Origin: Cytophagaceae bacterium
GTDB lineage: Bacteria > Bacteroidota > Bacteroidia > Cytophagales > JAIYAX01
NCBI GenBank assembly: GCA_027488815.1
Contig: JAIYAX010000009.1
Span: 1 to 64,000 of the forward strand
DNA length: 64,000 nucleotides
Direction of reading: 5' to 3'
Made by a program: the position numbers and the translations under genes. Below the pieces are notes generated by a model. That model was not told the DNA's origin. It worked only from the letters and a program-made list of their open reading frames with translations, and searched no databases. Every line of letters starts with the position of its first letter. Within the stretch, counting starts at the first letter, position 1. Below are positions 1 to 9,852 of the stretch, in pieces.

Positions 1-146
1 AGTACGATTACTTTGTTTTCTTCTTCCTCTAAAAGTCGAAGTCCGGCACGAATAACTTCGCTAACACTTTTATAGCGACCTGCTGAAACTTGACTACTTA
101 CAAACTGGTCAAAATAGTCTCCAAGTGATATTGATGTATTTTTCAT
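1..146 (-). CDS. ParD-family antitoxin, N-terminal part (cut by window edge)
   Basis: The reverse strand from an ATG at 146 reads 48 residues beginning [16 protein letters not shown] and containing [21 protein letters not shown]. This is the hallmark N-terminus of ParD/CopG-type ribbon-helix-helix antitoxins, which repress their own promoter and neutralise a ParE toxin. The ORF runs off the left edge, so its C-terminal toxin-binding tail and any parE gene are outside the window. A palindrome at 169-185 sits in the expected place for autoregulation. The gene faces away from the defence operon and lies beyond its left flanking block. The family call rests on motif recognition alone. Confidence 0.85.
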
Positions 147-583: not shown

Positions 584-1546
584 TCATGTTAGGTCATTAA
601 AGTACTGTTCAATTATAAACCTAGCCAATCCAGCATACTCTCTATTTGATTCTTTAAATTGATGTAGAATATTTAATTCTCTTCGCATAATTCCTTCAAA
701 CCAAGTGACCTTTTCGTTGGAATCTTCAATATGGTTATTAAAGTTTATCATGGCCTCTTCAACTCTTCTAATCTGAGCCTTGATTTGAATTACTTTTTCT
801 TCTCTCGACTGAACCAAGCCAATTCGCTGTAAAGCATAAACTCTAATAGAAGTTGTGGCTTTAGTTTCTTCGAAATTATTTAACCCAATTGAAGGTCTGA
901 TTATACCGTTCTCATCATATTCAAAATATTTTTCAATTTCAGTGTCTGTACATGGTTTTAGTAATAATCTCTCTGTTTCCTCAAGTTCAAATGCTATTTT
1001 ATAATTATTTGGGTTCGTGGAAAATAAATTTCCATGAGAATAATTGAGACGATAAGTTTCAGTCAATAAAGGGAATTGATTTAATTTACCTTGTACAACT
1101 TCACTTATTGTTTTATTTTCCATTACCTCATGAGTATTGGTTTGATTGCAAAAAGGACAAGCAAATAATAAATTATTCCAATCTGATGCTAGCCAATAAT
1201 ATCCTGGCTTTGTTATTGGATTATTTTCACCATATCCACCTTTTGGTCTAAAGTGCTCAATATCTCCATTGTAAATACTTGTAATTTTACTTTCACAATA
1301 AGCACATTTACCATGGGACATTTTTTTAAGTTGTTTCCTAACCTCTTTGTTTGCATACACATTAAATGATTCTTTAATTCTCACACCGCTTGCTCCCATT
1401 CTTTTATATTGTAACTGGTGATTTGCAACAATAGAAAAGAAAGAAATTGCATCTTTCGATTCCCATTCACCTTCACTTTCTGGGGCAAGCCCAGTTTTAA
1501 GAATATCTGGACATTCTATTCTATCAACTTTGATCATTCGGTTCAA
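584..1546 (-). CDS. Stand-alone HNH endonuclease, PtuB/TIGR02646-like
   Basis: The last gene of the island operon encodes 320 residues with the zinc-binding HNH fold of Septu/retron-associated nucleases: CAYC at 81-84, IEHFRPKGG at about 96-104, a YYW...W..LL segment, and CPFCN at 130-134. The His in IEHF is the expected catalytic residue of a metal-dependent DNA nuclease. The frame opens at an ATG at 1546, but a second ATG at 1537 gives MIKVDR, which matches the MIKID start of the upstream paralogue and is probably the true start. It overlaps the stop of the HNH-ATPase gene by 12-23 bp, so translation is likely coupled. PtuB-like proteins normally work with a PtuA ATPase, here supplied by the upstream gene. 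Confidence 0.85.
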   Translation of the reverse strand: MNRMIKVDRIECPDILKTGLAPESEGEWESKDAISFFSIVANHQLQYKRMGASGVRIKESFNVYANKEVRKQLKKMSHGKCAYCESKITSIYNGDIEHFRPKGGYGENNPITKPGYYWLASDWNNLLFACPFCNQTNTHEVMENKTISEVVQGKLNQFPLLTETYRLNYSHGNLFSTNPNNYKIAFELEETERLLLKPCTDTEIEKYFEYDENGIIRPSIGLNNFEETKATTSIRVYALQRIGLVQSREEKVIQIKAQIRRVEEAMINFNNHIEDSNEKVTWFEGIMRRELNILHQFKESNREYAGLARFIIEQYFNDLT

Positions 1547-3620
1547 TATTTAGACTTAACCAAATTTCCTTAACTCTATCAACCACTTCCTTTTTAAGTG
1601 ATTCTCTATTCGGGATTTCCTTAGAAAACATCACTTTTTGAGCAAGCAAATTGTCAATTACTGTGTACATTAGTTCTTCTCTTAAGGATGAACCTAAATG
1701 TTTTTTGTTTCTCAATTCATCCTTCAAAGTATTTAACTCTTTTAGTTCTGTTGCAGTTATATTTTTCTGCATGCTCAATAGTTGATAGTATCTGTTAAAT
1801 TTTGCTTCAAGCTCAGGGTCTAATAGGCTGCTTAATCCAAAATATTCAGAAGACAATAATTGGTCAACTCTTAAAGAGGATGGGTCTGGTAATTCACAAA
1901 TTGCTTCTACTTCGTTCTCAACATTTCTCAAAAGAACAACTTCACCTAAATGTGACCCTCTTAAACATAATGGATGATGTGTTGATACAATAAATGTTAC
2001 TCTTGGAAACACCTCCCGTAATTGATTTACAATTCTCATCTGCCATCTTGGGTGAAGTTGATTTCCAAGTTCATCAATTATTACTATTCCTGAAATCTTA
2101 TTCATATCGGCATGGCCACTTGATAGCTTCATCATAATATCAAGTGCCAAGGTTATGGTACTTTTATAACCGTCACTAAAATTTGTAAATGGGATTTCTG
2201 GTGTATTTTCAAAGACAATTTCATTACGTAATATGGTTAATGTGTTGTCTTTTAAATCGTGTGGAAGTAATTTTTTGATAGAATAAGCAATTGAATCAAA
2301 TAGCTTTTTATTGGTTTTAAAAATATTTTTGAGCCATCGAGTGGAATCATTTAATGATTTAATAGGGTTTAGTAAATTTTCATAGCTCACTGGATTAAGG
2401 TTTTGTTTGCTTTCTAACCCCTCTTCAGATGAAAGGCGAAGTGAACCATAGCCAAGTAAAAATGAATTGAATCTGCCGTTTTGAATTATTGATTTGTCCT
2501 TTCTTTTTAGAACTGTGATTATCAAGTTGTCATTGTTTCTTTCTTTGATAAGAATTTCAGCCTTTTGCTTATTTTTTTGAATAAGACCGGAAATGATTTG
2601 ATCACCAGTTTCTATATTTGATTTGATACCTATTGCTAATGCTTGTAAAATTGAACTTTTACCAACACCATTTTCACCAAGTAAAAATAGCCATGCTCTA
2701 TTTTCATCGACATCAATAGGAAAGTCAATCTTTAAATCAGTAATACTCTTAAAGTTTTTAACGTGAATATATTCAAGAGGAAAATAGTCCGATTTTGTTA
2801 TTTCAATTTTACTCCTTTTAACTTTTCTTTGTTTTAACTTATCATCAACGAATTCTTCATATGAGACATTGTCATTTTTAATATATTTTCTAAAAAATGG
2901 GCTTGAATCGAGTTCTTCTATGAGCGCTTCATGTTTGGCAAACAAAAATTCAATGTGTGGCTCTCTATCAAATATTTGATTTATATAATCAAATTCTTTT
3001 GTGGTATTTTTTGATGCTCGATCAATAATAGTCTTAATCTCAGAAATGGCCTTGATTCTGTTACTAACTAATGAAGTTCTGTTTAGTTTGAGAAGTTCTA
3101 TCGTTTGAAAACCTTCGTCTGTCTCCGAATGAATTTCTCCTTTGGAAAATGTGAAATAATTTCTAGGTTCATCTTCACAAGGATTTAATAACAATTTTCT
3201 CTCCCTTTCTATATCGTCTGCTTTAGTTTTAGCACGTTTTCCTTTGATTGGAAAATAGTTCGCTTTATACTGATTGCATTCTTTACAAGAATAAACAAGG
3301 TTTTTCCACTCATAAACAAGCCACCAATACAAATCTGGAAAATAATCTGTTTTGTCTCTTACTCCATCGTGTGGCCTAAATCTGTCTATAACACCATCCT
3401 GCGGTAATTCAATCTTAGTTTCACAATATCCACATTTGCCATGAAATGTTTTATGCAGAATTGGTTTTAAAGGGACGTCAATATCCGAATTAAATGGAAA
3501 ATCATATCTTTTTTGACTTCTATTTTTTGTGCTATAGAATTCATTCAGTTTTTCCACTGCCAAATCTAATGACTCAGAGTTCAAGTATTCTGGTATTTTC
3601 CCTTGGTCAATTTTGATCAT
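1524..3620 (-). CDS. HNH nuclease fused to SMC/OLD-like AAA ATPase (PtuB-PtuA fusion)
   Basis: A 698-residue protein with two parts. Residues 1-130 form an HNH domain (CGYC at 63-66, IDRFRP at 78-83, W..LVYSCKECNQ around 106-117, NYFP after it). From about 280 follows an ABC/SMC-type ATPase starting YIHVKNFKSI, with Walker A GENGVGKS at 315-322, a signature-like FSDGYKS, Walker B IVIIDELGNQLHP, and an STHHP switch His. In Septu the ATPase (PtuA) and HNH protein (PtuB) are separate; here they are joined. The position that is His in IEHF of the neighbouring HNH protein is Arg here (IDRF), so this HNH domain may be inactive or belong to a variant subfamily. It overlaps the upstream NurA-like stop by 4 bp (ATGA). 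Confidence 0.88.
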   Translation of the reverse strand: MIKIDQGKIPEYLNSESLDLAVEKLNEFYSTKNRSQKRYDFPFNSDIDVPLKPILHKTFHGKCGYCETKIELPQDGVIDRFRPHDGVRDKTDYFPDLYWWLVYEWKNLVYSCKECNQYKANYFPIKGKRAKTKADDIERERKLLLNPCEDEPRNYFTFSKGEIHSETDEGFQTIELLKLNRTSLVSNRIKAISEIKTIIDRASKNTTKEFDYINQIFDREPHIEFLFAKHEALIEELDSSPFFRKYIKNDNVSYEEFVDDKLKQRKVKRSKIEITKSDYFPLEYIHVKNFKSITDLKIDFPIDVDENRAWLFLLGENGVGKSSILQALAIGIKSNIETGDQIISGLIQKNKQKAEILIKERNNDNLIITVLKRKDKSIIQNGRFNSFLLGYGSLRLSSEEGLESKQNLNPVSYENLLNPIKSLNDSTRWLKNIFKTNKKLFDSIAYSIKKLLPHDLKDNTLTILRNEIVFENTPEIPFTNFSDGYKSTITLALDIMMKLSSGHADMNKISGIVIIDELGNQLHPRWQMRIVNQLREVFPRVTFIVSTHHPLCLRGSHLGEVVLLRNVENEVEAICELPDPSSLRVDQLLSSEYFGLSSLLDPELEAKFNRYYQLLSMQKNITATELKELNTLKDELRNKKHLGSSLREELMYTVIDNLLAQKVMFSKEIPNRESLKKEVVDRVKEIWLSLNIEPNDQS

Positions 3621-4966
3621 CTTCCCATTAATTTTTTAGCAAATTTTTCAAGAATATTTGTGCTTGGGTGATTAGTAAGTGATATAAGTTTATTGGCAAG
3701 TGCAACAGGAATAAGTGCGTTCTCATATATATCGCATTTCAGTTTGTCAATATTCAACAATATCTCCTGAACATTTTTTAAGTCTGTCAATTCTGGAACT
3801 GCATAGTATTTATTATGGTCTGTAACTGGAATTGTCAGAACATATAATCTGTCATCATGTGATTTATAAATGAATTTTCCACTGTAATATGATGTGCTTG
3901 CATATTGGCTATTAGATTTTCCCGGAATTATATAACTGTAGATGTGATTATTATTCAAAAGGAGTACTTGACCAGAAATAAGCTTATCCTTAATTTGTTT
4001 TGCATGATCTACAAATGGGCCAGAATTTTCAACGCCTACAATGTTTATTCTATTTGATTTATTTAAAAAGTTAACGAGTGTCTGCATAGGTTTGTGCATT
4101 CTAGCAGTCTCACCATTGAAGCTCAATGGACCATCTTTCACAAAAAGAAATCTATCAACCAACTTGTCTTCTATTTCAATTAGACTTTTAATGGTATGAA
4201 TCATTAAAAAACTTTCAATCAAGCTACTGGTATAGCTAATGATTCCTTCAGCCCCTGTATCATTATCGGCTTTTTCAAATAGCCTGAAAACATCAGTTAT
4301 GAATATTTCTTGTTTACATTTAGAATGTGTACATTCCCAAGAATAAGCGGGGATATTTATTTTCGCTTTCTCTAGCTTTATGTCATTAGTTCCACAATGA
4401 GGGCAATGTGATAAATTATAATCTAGAATTGAGGAATGTACGTCATACCCTTCAAACAAAAACCAATACAATGTTTCTAACATTGATGTTGATCCAGAAT
4501 GTTTTTTTTCAAAAAATAATTGAATCGCCTTCCTTACAGAGGTTTTTAGATCATCCCCCTTCTTTAATGATACATTTTTTGTCGGAAGGATAAGCTTTTC
4601 TCTTTTTATGTCCTTTAGTTTTCTGATGTCGGTTGGCGAAACAAACGGTTTTTGTTTCATGTCCTCCAAATCAGAACTTTTAATTAGTAGTGAGCCAAAT
4701 TGAAAAAATGTAATCAGTGAAGAAGGAAAGCTTTTTTTGACGGGAATCGTAGTTTCTTCTCCATCAACCGCAATTATATAATCAATTGTATTTTCCAGAG
4801 GATAAACAATATTATGGAGCAATTTAGGATTAAGTTCTACATCTTCTGCTTCAACTGGAATAGTGCAATTCGATAAATATTCCTTTACCTCTTCATCATT
4901 AATAATGTGAGTATGAGAAATACGACTTCCTCTTTCAAAACTTCCTCCATTGTTAATATCTGTCAT
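3617..4966 (-). CDS. NurA-like nuclease with inserted zinc ribbon
   Basis: A 449-residue protein directly downstream of HerA, 6 bp from its stop. NurA nucleases pair with HerA hexamers to process DNA ends. Consistent features are IIAVDGEE (Asp68) near the N-terminus, FLFVKDGPLSF (Asp278), a VGVEN strand, and an ALANKLISLT segment near the C-terminus like the end of NurA domains. Between the two acidic motifs lies a four-Cys zinc ribbon (CPHC at 188-191, CTHSKC at 212-217), which is not part of classical NurA. Sequence similarity to NurA is weak, and the call leans on position beside HerA plus motif order. It could instead be another RNase H-like nuclease. Confidence 0.65.
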   Translation of the reverse strand: MTDINNGGSFERGSRISHTHIINDEEVKEYLSNCTIPVEAEDVELNPKLLHNIVYPLENTIDYIIAVDGEETTIPVKKSFPSSLITFFQFGSLLIKSSDLEDMKQKPFVSPTDIRKLKDIKREKLILPTKNVSLKKGDDLKTSVRKAIQLFFEKKHSGSTSMLETLYWFLFEGYDVHSSILDYNLSHCPHCGTNDIKLEKAKINIPAYSWECTHSKCKQEIFITDVFRLFEKADNDTGAEGIISYTSSLIESFLMIHTIKSLIEIEDKLVDRFLFVKDGPLSFNGETARMHKPMQTLVNFLNKSNRINIVGVENSGPFVDHAKQIKDKLISGQVLLLNNNHIYSYIIPGKSNSQYASTSYYSGKFIYKSHDDRLYVLTIPVTDHNKYYAVPELTDLKNVQEILLNIDKLKCDIYENALIPVALANKLISLTNHPSTNILEKFAKKLMGR

Positions 4967-4972
4967 GATTAA

Positions 4973-6982
4973 TTATTTAAAGAGTTCAATTTGTACAGGA
5001 ACTACAAATGGATTGGAATACGTTTTCATTCTCACAAAACCCTTATCATTCTTAGCACTAAATCTGATTAAAGCGTCAGCGAAATCACTGAAATCATAAA
5101 ATTTTCGTAATTCTTTAACTTCATCTTCGTTGTTTAAATGTGCAATAAACCAATTTTGTGTATTCTTTAGAATGTTTGAACTAATTGAACTTACTTCTTG
5201 TGTTGCATATGTCATACCTAAATATAGTTTAGCTCCTTCCTTAGCAATTCTATTATAAATTTGACTTAAATCCTTGTCATCCTTTTTTGGAAAAAGATTA
5301 TGAGCTTCTTCAAAATAGAATTGAATAAAATTATTTGGTTTAGCGTCAATAAAATTTTTCATTGAACTATTAAATATAGCTCGACAAATTTTTTCTGAAT
5401 ATAGATTTTGAATTTCGGGGTCTCCTTGTGATAAATCGACAATAATAATTTTCCCTAATCTAAGTTTTGAGTTTATTTCATCTTCAAACAACACATTCGA
5501 AGTTGGTGAATGATATTTAATTAAGGGTTTAAGCTTGATATAGCTATTAATAGGACCTTTTTCCTCTGGTTGTCTATATTGTGATATAAACCTTAATAGT
5601 GCTTTCAAGTCATTGTCAGCCCATTCATGTCCGTTTTTTGATTCATACTCTTTTAAATATTTCCATGTTCTATAGTTTTTCCAAACTTGAGTGAACCAAA
5701 GGATAGCTTGATCGTACTTAATTCCAGCTTTAGGTGTTATAGATTTCCCTTCTATAATTTGGTCATCAATTCCTTCTGCTTTACCTTGAAATTTAATGTT
5801 ATCAATACCCCAAATTGGGAAGCCTGCTAGTTTTAGGCAGCAACGATATGCCGCAACTTTTCGATAGTAATTTGTTTGTTCAGAAATATCTTCGGGTTTC
5901 TCAAGGTTTATGCCTAAAAAATCCTCTACATAATCTGATTGTTTACCAAATTGCTTGAAATAACCTCTAATAAGTTCTAAACCTGGAATGAGCTCTTTAT
6001 AGAAATTTATTTTCATTACTTCAAATCCTTCTTTTTCTAGGACGCTATATCTAGTTACTTTCTCTGTATACTTTTCAAATATCGCTGTTCCGTCCTGCAA
6101 ATTTTTGTTAGCATATTCACCATTGATGTCAAATATAATTTGTCCAACCTCTTTTTTGGGTACTTCATTTAAATGAAATGGTTTGGTATTTTCTTCAAAA
6201 CTTTCATTTGTTGGTTTAGTTTGTTGAGTTGATTTTTGGGATAATTCCTCCGTTGCTTGAATAAGTTTTTTAACAGTATTAGATTTTCCCGTTCTGGTCA
6301 TTCCAAAAAGAGCTGTTCGCTTTCCTAGAATATCTTGTGTGTGCATATAAACAGTTTCATCTCCCTTAGTTTGTTTAGAAGAAAACTTTTGACGACTGGA
6401 ACTATATCTTACTGTTCCAATTGGGAAGTTAGAGTCTGGTTTTAATGGACCATCCGTATCTCTTAAATTTACGATATACCGAAGATAATTGCCAGTCGGT
6501 TTATAAACTTTATAGAGATGAGGCGAATAGAAATTTTCTAAATCTGCCCCGAATTCAATCGCACCATCAGGTTTCTTATAAAATGTCCCCAATACCGAAC
6601 ATTCTAAGCCAGAACAACTAAATTCAAATCTTGTAAATTGGTCTATCTGTCTGTGCTTTCCAGCAGTTTTTAATTCTTCTTTAAAATATTCAATTCTTGA
6701 ACTAATCACGCTACTATCACTTGGTATTGCACATGGATTTAATGCTCTAAGCAAAAGTACTTCATGAACTGCTTCGTCCCCGAAATCGTTCTCATAAAAA
6801 GCTAATAGAAAACATCCTTGAGCTATACCGCCTACGTTGTATTTCCAATCATCACATGTTAGAATACTTGTCTTATCGTAATCAATTTTAAAAGGATTGC
6901 CAACAAATGATTTGGAATCCTTAATTATTTCAAAAATGTCGGTATTTGCAATGTTTTCGAGTTCTTTGCGTAGATCTTCCAT
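4973..6982 (-). CDS. HerA-type ATPase/DNA translocase
   Basis: A 669-residue member of the HerA-FtsK family. Walker A is GMTRTGKSNT at 227-236. A DINGEY segment follows, then IIVDLSQGDP, and a Walker B FYFEEAHNLFP, where the EEAH form is characteristic of HerA. The downstream stretch LGMTYATQEVSSIS and the final ATPase strand also fit HerA. HerA forms hexameric rings that pump DNA to a partner nuclease such as NurA, SIR2 or DUF4297 in defence settings. Here the NurA-like gene follows within 6 bp and the methyltransferase stop lies 1 bp upstream. The N-terminal 200 residues are not confidently assigned and could include the HAS-barrel or a target-recognition part. Confidence 0.9.
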   Translation of the reverse strand: MEDLRKELENIANTDIFEIIKDSKSFVGNPFKIDYDKTSILTCDDWKYNVGGIAQGCFLLAFYENDFGDEAVHEVLLLRALNPCAIPSDSSVISSRIEYFKEELKTAGKHRQIDQFTRFEFSCSGLECSVLGTFYKKPDGAIEFGADLENFYSPHLYKVYKPTGNYLRYIVNLRDTDGPLKPDSNFPIGTVRYSSSRQKFSSKQTKGDETVYMHTQDILGKRTALFGMTRTGKSNTVKKLIQATEELSQKSTQQTKPTNESFEENTKPFHLNEVPKKEVGQIIFDINGEYANKNLQDGTAIFEKYTEKVTRYSVLEKEGFEVMKINFYKELIPGLELIRGYFKQFGKQSDYVEDFLGINLEKPEDISEQTNYYRKVAAYRCCLKLAGFPIWGIDNIKFQGKAEGIDDQIIEGKSITPKAGIKYDQAILWFTQVWKNYRTWKYLKEYESKNGHEWADNDLKALLRFISQYRQPEEKGPINSYIKLKPLIKYHSPTSNVLFEDEINSKLRLGKIIIVDLSQGDPEIQNLYSEKICRAIFNSSMKNFIDAKPNNFIQFYFEEAHNLFPKKDDKDLSQIYNRIAKEGAKLYLGMTYATQEVSSISSNILKNTQNWFIAHLNNEDEVKELRKFYDFSDFADALIRFSAKNDKGFVRMKTYSNPFVVPVQIELFK

Positions 6983-6983
6983 A

Positions 6984-7955
6984 TTATTTTTTGATGAGTG
7001 GTGATTTAAGTTCAGGATTGCTAAATCTAATTATCGCCTGTTTTATATAATCTTCTTTTATTTCAAAGGACATCCATTTTCTCTTCAATGCCTCTGCACA
7101 GTAGCCTGTTGTATTGCTCCCAGAAAAAGGGTCTAGAACTAAATCATTTTCATTGGTCAAAAATTTGATGAAAAAATTAACTAATCCACCTGACATTCTA
7201 GCTGGGTGAGGAATCACTTTTTTTTCTCTGCACTTAGTTAAGAAAAAATCATTCGAGTTGGTATTTGAAAAACTGAGTACGCTGTGAGGTAGCCTAACAT
7301 CCCTGCTCTCGTCTAATTGTTCCATCTCAAAAAAATTATGAGCAATACTCCCACCATGATCTTTCAAGAAGCCTTTTTCACTTATGTTGTGTTCGGAAGG
7401 TCTTTTCCCTGAATTGTATTTTTGTTTTTTAAGTAATTGTTTCATGCTTTTGCTGTAAGGTCTGAGCACATTACTATTATCAGCTTTGGGGAAATCATTT
7501 TTAGCAATCCACCAAACATGGGTGTAACTATCAACTGTTCGAAGACGATTAACAGTTACCCACTGTGCAGGAGATGGCAATTTAGAAGGGTTATAACAAA
7601 TGAATTCCTGAATTAGTCTAAGATTTGCTTTTGGATGTTTAACCAATCCAAATAAACATTCAAGATGAAGTAAAGATTGAACAGGTCTTTCAGGTTCCCA
7701 CGAGTTGCCTATTTCGATAATCAAAGAGCCATCATCAGTGAGTAGGTCTGAAAATATAGGGGCCAATTCTGTAAACCATTTTTGATATTCTTCTCCTTTT
7801 TCATTTCCATATTTCTTTTTACTATTCAAAGGAAAGGGCGGAGAAGTGATTATTAAATTCACTTTCCCCTTTAATGATTTGTGTAGCTCACCACTCAATA
7901 AGTCTATTGAATCACCTACAATTAATTTCCCCTTTTTAGAATTATATAATTTCAT
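6984..7955 (-). CDS. Beta-class site-specific DNA methyltransferase
   Basis: The first gene of the island operon. Its 323 residues show the permuted order of beta-class (N4-cytosine or N6-adenine) DNA methyltransferases: catalytic motif IV TSPPF at 37-41, and the SAM-binding motif I DPFSGSNTTG at 275-284 followed by W.SFEI. TSPPF is seen more in N4-cytosine enzymes, but the base specificity cannot be read safely. In a defence operon it most simply marks host DNA so that the downstream HerA/NurA and HNH nucleases spare it. A -7 box (TAAATTTG on the minus strand, 7994-7987) lies 31 bp before the ATG. Confidence 0.9.
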   Translation of the reverse strand: MKLYNSKKGKLIVGDSIDLLSGELHKSLKGKVNLIITSPPFPLNSKKKYGNEKGEEYQKWFTELAPIFSDLLTDDGSLIIEIGNSWEPERPVQSLLHLECLFGLVKHPKANLRLIQEFICYNPSKLPSPAQWVTVNRLRTVDSYTHVWWIAKNDFPKADNSNVLRPYSKSMKQLLKKQKYNSGKRPSEHNISEKGFLKDHGGSIAHNFFEMEQLDESRDVRLPHSVLSFSNTNSNDFFLTKCREKKVIPHPARMSGGLVNFFIKFLTNENDLVLDPFSGSNTTGYCAEALKRKWMSFEIKEDYIKQAIIRFSNPELKSPLIKK

Positions 7956-8000: not shown

Positions 8001-8060
8001 TCAAAATACGTAAAAAAAATGCTTGTTCTTGGCACAAATGTAATTCGGTGCGTTAGGAGA

Positions 8061-8217
8061 TTTGGCTCTTTTGCTTTTGCCGAAGGGCTGGCTTTGAGTG
8101 TCGGGGCAAAAGCAAATGTGCCAAATGTGCGGCTGGCTAAAATTGAATTAAAAAAAATGTGCGGTGGGGAAAATAAAAAATACAGAAGGGTCGGCAATGA
8201 GTGTCGGCTCAGTTGCT
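8061..8217 (+). repeat. Right flanking block of the defence operon
   Basis: The block opens with a long stem-loop, arms 8061-8081 and 8105-8125 pairing at 18 of 21 positions with a 23-base loop. The arms centre on GGCAAAAGCAAA and its complement. It continues with the 20-base AT motif at 8139-8158, a 10-base spacer, the 15-base motif at 8169-8183, and CAGTTGCT at 8210-8217. The same elements in the same order and similar spacing occur inverted at 552-390. Confidence 0.75.
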
Positions 8218-8330
8218 GTCCAGTTGAAATATGGTCTGTATGTTGGTCACCTGTCAAAATTAGCGTTTCGTTTTATGTTTATAGTTGTCCGTTTGGTCGT
8301 TGTTGTGTCGTCTGTTAGGCTTGCTTGTAA

Positions 8331-8890
8331 CTACTCCGTTGGCGAAGCATTTCGCCTATTTCCCATATCGCTGAAGTCCATCTGATCCAAAGGGCTCTTG
8401 ATCTGCTCACCGCCCTTGCAGGTAATCCCGCCATGGCGAGCCAAGTGATGCGTGTTAATCTCCTTCGTTTTGACCGAAGCTTGACCTTGTAAGTAAGGTA
8501 TGTCTGTGCCTCGCTCAAGAATTTGACTGGCAAAACGATGACGCAAGGTGTGCACCCTCGCAAAAGGCTTGGCCCTGGCCTTTTCCAACGCTCTGCGAAG
8601 GATAACCTGTACACTTTTAGTCGTACAGGGTTCCTTTAAAGGCTCCTCAAATAGCCTATCGTCGGGTTTAGGCTTGGAGATAGCGTTGCAAAGCATAGGT
8701 TTCAATGGTTTGGCTAATATAGTGTATCTGTCTTTTTTCCCTTGCCTGTTTAGATAAATATTTTCCCTTTGTTTATGAGCAAGTCTTCTACCCAAAGTTC
8801 GAGTAGCTCTGCTTTCTGCTACCGAAGAGAGCAGCGGCAAACGTAACCCTTCGATCCCCTGCACGACATACCCTTCCCCAAGAAACACAA
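8331..8890 (-). pseudogene. Tyrosine recombinase (XerC/D-like integrase), degenerate
   Basis: Minus-strand reading gives recognisable pieces of a Bacteroidota tyrosine recombinase: GKKDRYTIL, RALEKARAKPFARVHTLRHRFASQ (split here only for description; key residues are the LRH of the R..H pair), ILERGTDIPYLQ, and the typical tail IKSPLDQMDF. The protein is broken. The LLGH motif after YLQ is lost, the catalytic Tyr of the usual IYTH motif is Asn (INTH), foreign residues sit before IKSPLD, and the N-terminal core-binding half is missing or out of frame upstream of GKKDRYT. The open frame continues to 8999 only by running through the terminator of the NmrA gene. It is probably the remnant of the enzyme that once mobilised this locus. 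Confidence 0.8.
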
Positions 8891-8915
8891 AAAGCCGAAC
8901 GATTTCGTCCGGCTT
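8887..8915 (-). terminator. Terminator of the NmrA-family gene
   Basis: On the minus strand an 11-bp near-perfect stem (arms 8915-8905 and 8902-8892, AAGCCGGACGA / TCGTTCGGCTT) is followed by a short T-rich run. It lies about 46 bp past the stop of the reductase gene at 8962. A T-run on the plus side (8921-8926) means it could also act in the other direction. Confidence 0.6.
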
Positions 8916-8961
8916 ATTGGTTTTTTGCCTCTCCAGGGTAGGAGCTGAAAAAGCTGCCCGA

Positions 8962-9852
8962 TTAGTTTTGCTGATACACCCCTGCAAACAAACCGGCAAA
9001 GTTTTCCAGTTTAGTGGGGCTAAGTTTAAGATCAGAGTGCTTTACAAAGTCAGACTGCATGGCTCCACTTTGTATGGCCTGTCCCATCTCCACGTAGTTT
9101 TTTGCTACCTCCTGGCTGAGACCCATACCCACCATGGCCCCGAAGGCATCTTCATCCTTGAATGCTACCCAAGGCAGTTGTGGCTTTTCTACTGCTGAAC
9201 CCAGCACTTGTGCCACTTCAGAGGCTTTACGTACATCACTTACAACATAGTGTACCGATTTGCCTGTAAAATTTGACTTGTTAAGTGCCTCAAATGCCTC
9301 CTGAGCAATATCACCGGTGTCTACGAGTGCCATTTTAACATCAGCGCTGTAATTGGATCCTAAGATGTTCATGTTTTTCACCATGCCGACGTTGCCCAGG
9401 TAGTTGAGGTAGAAAAACCCCGGGCGCAGATGAAGTACATCTACCCCCTCCAGTTGATCCAATGCCTGCTCAACACGGTACAATCCACTTACGGGTCCGC
9501 AACCTTCAGGCATGTGGGCACCGATGCTGCTGAGGTTAACGACTTTTTTCACTCCACTGCTTTTGATCGCCTTTGCATACAGAGCACCTATGCTTCCGAT
9601 ATAGCCTTTCCAGTCGGTAGCACCAAAATGGGGAGGAACCATGGTATAGACAGCATCGGCACCTTGAAATGTCTGATGTAAAAACGCTTCATCTTCTACA
9701 GAACCTATGGCAGGAATGGCTCCCAATGCTTTGATGGTCTCGGCCTTATCAGCCTTGCTGCTGATCACGGTCACCTGATGACCTGCTTTAACTAATTTCT
9801 CGGTAAGTGGCTTGGAGATGTTCCCCAATGAGCCTGTGATGACATATTTCAT
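8962..9852 (-). CDS. NmrA-family NAD(P)-binding reductase
   Basis: A 296-residue atypical short-chain dehydrogenase of the NmrA/QorB type. It starts MKYVITGSLGNISKPL, where TGSLGNIS replaces the usual TGATGxxG nucleotide-binding loop. VNLSSIGAH and a Y..E segment follow. No catalytic Tyr-x-x-x-Lys is evident, as is common in this group. These proteins act as quinone or other NAD(P)H-dependent reductases or as redox sensors. It is divergently transcribed from an HxlR regulator, sharing an 83-bp promoter, which suggests a quinone/electrophile-responsive pair like QorR-QorB (inference). Confidence 0.8.
   Translation of the reverse strand: MKYVITGSLGNISKPLTEKLVKAGHQVTVISSKADKAETIKALGAIPAIGSVEDEAFLHQTFQGADAVYTMVPPHFGATDWKGYIGSIGALYAKAIKSSGVKKVVNLSSIGAHMPEGCGPVSGLYRVEQALDQLEGVDVLHLRPGFFYLNYLGNVGMVKNMNILGSNYSADVKMALVDTGDIAQEAFEALNKSNFTGKSVHYVVSDVRKASEVAQVLGSAVEKPQLPWVAFKDEDAFGAMVGMGLSQEVAKNYVEMGQAIQSGAMQSDFVKHSDLKLSPTKLENFAGLFAGVYQQN

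Follow-up and report, generated by a model that had tools for sequence, protein, structure and literature searches.

A conserved five-gene operon joining a methyltransferase, HerA and NurA to a Septu-type PtuA–PtuB pair in Bacteroidota

An et al. (Nat Chem Biol) are reported to have found that host DNA modification restrains the Tdp nuclease complex. Operons of a methyltransferase, HerA and NurA as such are not new, since ICETh1 of Thermus has TdtA (HerA-like), NurA, the type IIG Tth111II and a PF01555 N4/N6 methylase in one operon that acts in DNA donation (PMC5365140). Elsewhere, cutting of double-stranded DNA by HerA–NurA requires ATP (PMC12977600). Hma, a three-gene unit of a helicase, an m5C methylase and an ATPase, often adjoins Septu type I (PMC8565338), and surveys of the capture of HerA by defence systems mention neither NurA nor PtuA nor Septu (PMC10853773, PMC12839542). 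Here we describe an operon in which genes for a methyltransferase (MTase), a HerA-type ATPase and a NurA-family nuclease are followed by those of a Septu-type pair, PtuA and PtuB (PtuAB). The operon is located in the first 64,000 nt of contig JAIYAX010000009.1 of a Cytophagaceae bacterium (assembly GCA_027488815.1); this whole stretch is called the window, and it begins at the contig end. The coupling of PtuAB to MTase–HerA–NurA is strongly supported. With moderate confidence we read the locus as a composite, restriction-type anti-invader operon, with a methylation-gated, TdpAB-like HerA–NurA core and a Septu-type second effector.

The features of the operon, in the order of transcription (MTase, HerA, NurA, PtuA, PtuB), are as follows; loci in which PtuA and PtuB follow HerA and NurA are called composite.

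6984–7955, minus strand: MTase, a beta-class amino DNA methyltransferase, M.PvuII-like (probably N4-cytosine), 323 aa
4973–6982, minus strand: HerA/FtsK-type DNA-translocase ATPase, 669 aa
3617–4966, minus strand: NurA-family nuclease with a Cys zinc-ribbon insert, 449 aa
3617–3620, minus strand: nurA/ptuA overlap of 4 bp, present at all composite loci
1524–3620, minus strand: PtuA, an N-terminal HNH-like domain fused to an AAA ATPase, 698 aa
584–1537 from the likely ATG (584–1546 from the TTG of the list of open reading frames), minus strand: PtuB, an HNH nuclease

All five open reading frames (ORFs) lie on the minus strand at 584–7955, with gaps of 1 and 6 bp and then the 4-bp nurA/ptuA overlap, just as the original prediction, made from the sequence alone, had described them. 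The 23-bp overlap that it gave for PtuA and PtuB needs the TTG start at 1546; the ATG at 1537 is likelier, because, counted from the TTG, the protein aligns with the PADLOC PtuB model from residue 4 onwards, and the overlap is therefore 14 bp. A scan for sigma-70 promoters and terminators produced matches at the level of shuffled sequence.

A HerA scan with one genome per species yielded 80 loci. In addition to Bacteroidota, they represent 13 phyla, among them Bacillota, Chloroflexota, Cyanobacteriota, Pseudomonadota and Planctomycetota as well as several candidate phyla and one phylum of archaea. In 77 of the 80 loci the gene immediately downstream of HerA is that of NurA, and in 59 the one immediately upstream encodes a related MTase. 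Of the 21 Bacteroidota loci, 14 have PtuA–PtuB behind NurA, which is seen at none of the remaining 59; HerA–NurA without PtuAB, mostly with a methylase, is found across the 13 other phyla. The 14 composite loci from the scan, together with L021 and the window, make a total of 16 from five Bacteroidota classes. The order HerA–NurA–PtuA–PtuB is the same in 16 of 16, and in all of them ptuA starts within the nurA stop so that the two genes share 4 bp (an overlap given in L048 by a downstream ATG, as judged by inspection, and kept in L093 by the first fragment of a broken ptuA). Two of the 16 lack a same-orientation MTase directly upstream: in Puia L041 an MTase was not found, and in L037 an MTase fragment in opposite orientation lies at the contig end. 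Since 16 loci share both the order and the overlap, the arrangement is well beyond chance. The original prediction had made its case hang on conservation of the gene order in other genomes, which we observe; the curated models and the conserved order also support its view that a methylase, a HerA–NurA machine and a Septu-like pair form one operon.

The genes are also inherited together. Two overlapping draws of 395 genomes (phylum and class) were searched for the PtuA subfamily, with the best two PtuA candidates per genome scored, so that a weak second copy could be missed; only three genomes, those of the window, G021 and G057, proved to have the subfamily, and each of them carries the operon. 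A close NurA locus, L126, is without PtuAB, its contig ending ∼400 bp downstream. The 14 composite MTases that were tested group in a single clade (support 99), as do the composite PtuAs against four standalone PtuAs (96/93) and, with weak support (79), the composite NurAs. Distances of NurA and PtuA correlate (r 0.88, p 0.0002), and the NurA and PtuA splits match. Identity to the window proteins across composites is 80–85% for MTase (where present), 48–72% for NurA and 36–59% for PtuA; the marking enzyme is conserved and the effector is diverging fast.

These data bear on the possibility that an MTase–HerA–NurA restriction system and a Septu pair are two independent defence systems, each working alone and co-transcribed as a transferable package. 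Consistent with it, 66 of the 80 HerA loci are without PtuAB, and five plasmids carry a related HNH-AAA PtuA (∼30–34% identity) and a PtuB-like neighbour, without adjoining HerA, NurA or MTase. We nevertheless consider it unlikely, given the invariant order and exact overlap at 16 loci from five classes, the absence of the PtuA subfamily outside the operon in the sampled genomes and the matching splits of NurA and PtuA. Because MTase–HerA–NurA and related PtuAB each occur without the other, what we observe is two separable modules stably joined.

Several points weigh against the composite restriction-type reading. In the HerA tree the composites fall into two clades, which needs two origins; one origin is not rejected (AU test, p 0.11). 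MTase distances show hardly any correlation with NurA (r 0.19) and PtuA (r 0.15) distances, and the methylase may thus have been exchanged between loci. Most MTase–HerA–NurA loci are without PtuAB, so the core does not need it, and PtuAB may act independently, since related pairs stand alone on plasmids. The cyanobacterial plasmids L015–L017 and Puia L041 have no adjacent methylase of this kind; given such relatives, the mark may not be needed or may come from a gene elsewhere. As to a double independent origin of the composite, weighed from the HerA tree, we rejected it: the MTase, NurA and PtuA trees each keep the composites together, and the same AU test leaves a single origin standing.

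Other genes are found behind NurA elsewhere: a KwaB-like gene (L042:12519-13595), a Cas4-like PD-(D/E)XK gene (L073:7033-7791) and an HNH gene (L022:8246-8980). The position after NurA may therefore be an effector slot, each of these cases being seen in a single locus. At another locus (L023:6851-15681) HerA–NurA stands directly before a complete type I restriction-modification set of HsdR, HsdM and HsdS. In a cyanobacterial locus (L101:1597-8916) HerA–NurA is preceded by a three-gene unit whose products are a UvrD helicase with PD-(D/E)XK, a methylase resembling those of type III, and a ResIII protein that carries a TnsA-like nuclease domain; L100 and L105 have the same unit, judging by gene sizes, and it may be another HerA–NurA-linked restriction system. 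On a Deferribacter megaplasmid (L019:11938-15736) the HerA gene is interrupted by an IS200/IS605 TnpA–TnpB insertion.

The window HerA matches DUF87 (1.2e-10) and keeps the Walker A motif GMTRTGKS (227–234) and FEEAH (557–561). Its best PDB sequence match is TdpA (8wet, 1.4e-18); the six best PDB fold matches of its predicted model, of moderate quality (pLDDT 74.7), are all TdpA chains, the best at 5.3e-21. Queried by itself, the NurA-like protein of the window matched nothing in Pfam or, by sequence, in PDB, and a profile search of PDB returned zinc-ribbon noise only. The identity of NurA is settled by family-wide Pfam matches (Pfam NurA in 8 of 16 family members, best 8e-32) and by fold comparison: its AlphaFold model (pLDDT 87.6) has TdpB (8wfd_G, 3.6e-7) as the top PDB fold, followed by Deinococcus radiodurans NurA (7f6d_G). 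Orthologues are annotated as NurA by NCBI, and D68, D278 and H321 are conserved. The operon thus has what defines HerA–NurA, a HerA ATPase with an adjoining gene for a NurA-fold partner, and the machine proposed in the original prediction is borne out. A TdpA-like HerA and a TdpB-like nuclease, as in Tdp, are there too, by top PDB match in sequence (HerA) and in fold (both), at the level of remote homology; the modification gene is an N4/N6 methyltransferase and not a phosphorothioate enzyme.

HerA–NurA carries out end resection in archaea and Deinococcus (PMC9960219, PMC12977600), and one could suppose that the window pair is a housekeeping DNA repair machine with unrelated neighbours. This idea is scarcely credible for a pair of sporadic distribution (14 of 395 genomes of the phylum draw), foreign GC content and MTase linkage at 59 of the 80 loci, in an operon with no rad50 or mre11.

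The MTase matches Pfam N6_N4_Mtase (6.8e-31) and has the motifs TSPPF (37–41) and DPFSGSNT (275–282). Since it is collinear with M.PvuII (1BOO, 4.1e-63) over residues 4–315, nearly its entire length, N4-cytosine methylation is its likeliest chemistry. It is also matched by the PADLOC MTase_II model; still, this is not a type II restriction-modification system, the nuclease being HerA–NurA and a classical endonuclease gene being absent among the operon's genes. As a clue to the MTase site we looked at depletion of CAGCTG, a guess from M.PvuII, which occurs 15 times against 22.1 expected; other palindromes behave similarly, and the count was uninformative.

Genes 4 and 5 had been called Septu-like. 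A Septu pair they are, and the wording was an understatement: PtuA matches PADLOC PtuA1 (PDLC00292, 4.5e-213) at residues 1–693, its full length, and PtuB matches PtuB1 (PDLC00319, 1.5e-96), also full length. Adjacent, overlapping ptuA (AAA ATPase) and ptuB (HNH) genes are the composition of Septu type I. The Walker motifs of PtuA are intact (A, GENGVGKS, 315–322; B, IVIIDEL, 512–518), and PtuB keeps EHFRP (His95 from the ATG) and CPFCN. In Septu EcB88 the Walker A/B motifs and the His and Asn of the PtuB H-N-H are essential (PMC13096335).

The state of the HNH motif was read from a motif alignment of 15 PtuA N-termini and 16 PtuB proteins. The EHFRP histidine is present in all 16 composite PtuBs. 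In PtuA the motif is DHFRP in six of six clade II members and DRFRP or DRYRP in nine of nine of clade I, to which the window PtuA belongs; there Arg80 replaces the catalytic His, with the zinc cysteines retained. The original prediction had counted two HNH enzymes, an HNH–ATPase fusion and an HNH nuclease. With Arg in place of the catalytic His at all nine clade I loci, a single active HNH is likely, that of PtuB; the PtuA-fused HNH-like domain is predicted to be structural and non-catalytic in this clade. Loss of the His is not unique to the composite, since a standalone Priestia PtuA carries the same Arg. No PtuA relatives were seen in the phage records and viral contigs searched. Reported PtuAB targets are tRNA-Tyr for Septu EcB88 and retron-Eco7, and nicked DNA for another Septu (PMC13096335, PMC11555353); here too the earlier view needs correction, in that published PtuAB may cut tRNA instead of DNA.

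On its own, PtuAB of retron-Eco7 is toxic, and its retron partners neutralise it (PMC11555353). By the same logic, PtuAB could be the main toxin of the operon, restrained by HerA–NurA–MTase as its guard and freed when a phage disturbs HerA–NurA or methylation. That PtuAB is a recurrent plug-in effector, and that ptuA overlaps nurA by 4 bp at each locus, would suit this scheme; related PtuAB, however, is also a standalone pair, and the operon bears no resemblance to a known PtuAB inhibitor. We find such a guard role quite improbable.

In the composite restriction-type reading, host DNA would be marked by the M.PvuII-like methylase, which would probably place N4-methylcytosine in a short site. 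HerA, as a hexamer, and NurA, as a dimer, would form a TdpAB-like translocase–nuclease that loads on and shreds unmarked DNA; that methylation would spare host DNA from HerA–NurA is proposed by analogy with Tdp. PtuA–PtuB, translationally coupled to NurA, would be a built-in Septu-type second effector. The PtuA ATPase may respond to infection, either through products of phage DNA or because the first layer has failed, and license the PtuB HNH to cut tRNA or nicked DNA and so stop phage growth, with the PtuA-fused HNH-like domain serving in the window clade as a non-catalytic scaffold. We infer in this way that the modules work together. A stricter form, possible but tentative, is a single integrated machine: HerA–NurA would read methylation status, and what it reads would directly control the Septu toxin. 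Restriction of unmethylated DNA would come first, and its products or its failure would switch PtuAB from a silent to a growth-stopping state.

The operon has a GC content of 31–34% against ∼46% in its surroundings, which points to acquisition. Directly upstream of it, at 8331–8999 (minus strand), is a decayed tyrosine recombinase with an apparent deletion in the C-terminal catalytic region; its C-terminus resembles integron integrases (TIGR02249, 46 bits, well under the cut-off of 265). A ParD-like antitoxin reading frame at 1–146 (minus strand) is cut by the contig end. Dispersed repeats are present at 262–352 and 8015–8335, and an exact 20-nt inverted repeat (457–476 and 8139–8158) brackets the operon. 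The dispersed repeats are of two kinds, a ∼44-nt hairpin repeat (CCCTCGTTTGCAACGAGGG) and a ∼147-nt element ending in GTTAGGC. The genome has 24 matches to the hairpin repeat, which cluster on contigs such as C10, C11, C16, C17 and C25; on C25 it lies between successive low-GC genes (among them one for a HicA-like toxin), and the same contig holds a 91% copy of the ∼147-nt element. This may be a cassette-array-like island.

Low GC content, acquisition and the neighbouring recombinase would also fit DNA-transfer or mobile-element machinery, in which HerA–NurA and the methylase pump and trim DNA and defence plays no part; the ICETh1 operon is a precedent (PMC5365140). This we hold to be highly improbable. 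The Septu attachment is stable, among solved structures TdpAB and other defence complexes with HerA are the closest, and no conjugation genes were obvious on inspection of the ORFs of the neighbouring 12 kb.

As to novelty, the original prediction had recognised no named system here. No description of the MTase–HerA–NurA–PtuAB combination was found in the open-access literature, and in this respect the claim holds; genes 4 and 5 nevertheless match named Septu models, and MTase–HerA–NurA itself is widespread, what is new being its coupling to PtuAB. Judging from its models, PADLOC is expected to report only 'Septu' and a stray type II methylase here, and current defence catalogues may fail to show the coupling.

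Among known systems, PvuII restriction-modification shares a collinear MTase (4e-63); the window operon has no PvuII-like endonuclease. Hma is likewise a methylase and motor unit beside Septu, but the window methylase is N4/N6 beta-class and not m5C, and the nuclease is NurA; Hma models are not among the PADLOC matches listed (all 12 for HerA, the best 25 of 53 for MTase). The mad1–8 set of MADS is not found, the resemblance being a partial match of HerA to mad8 (1.1e-10) and a weak one of PtuA to MAD3 (9e-5). HerA-DUF4297 and Sir2-HerA (Nezha) also couple a HerA motor to an effector enzyme in phage defence; in the window the partner is NurA instead of DUF4297 or Sir2, and a methylase and PtuAB are present. 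The tdtA operon of ICETh1 has the same HerA-like ATPase, NurA-like nuclease and PF01555 methylase; it differs in its demonstrated role in DNA donation, in encoding Tth111II and in the integrase nearby, and PtuAB is not described for it.

With Septu type I the window shares full-length PtuA1 and PtuB1, with ATPase and PtuB HNH motifs intact; the differences are that PtuAB of the window clade always stands, as sampled, behind HerA–NurA and that the PtuA N-terminal HNH-like domain lacks the catalytic His. Retron I-A (RT-msDNA and PtuAB) similarly uses PtuAB as a plug-in effector of another module, which in the window is MTase–HerA–NurA; none of the five operon proteins is a reverse transcriptase (ncRNA was not searched for). 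The nearest solved structures to both HerA and NurA are those of the anti-phage Tdp complex (8wet, 8wfd), a HerA-family hexameric ATPase with a NurA-fold nuclease, at a fold-alignment identity of 9–17%; the window has a methyltransferase in place of the phosphorothioation enzyme, and PtuAB in addition. The recurrent MTase–HerA–NurA unit looks like a counterpart of Tdp that uses methylation in place of phosphorothioate, and to it Septu appears to have been recruited as a fixed downstream effector, as it was by retrons. One locus therefore makes both the PtuAB trigger and the reading of DNA modification by HerA–NurA nucleases testable, and if the integrated machine exists, Septu would be the licensed second effector of a restriction system.

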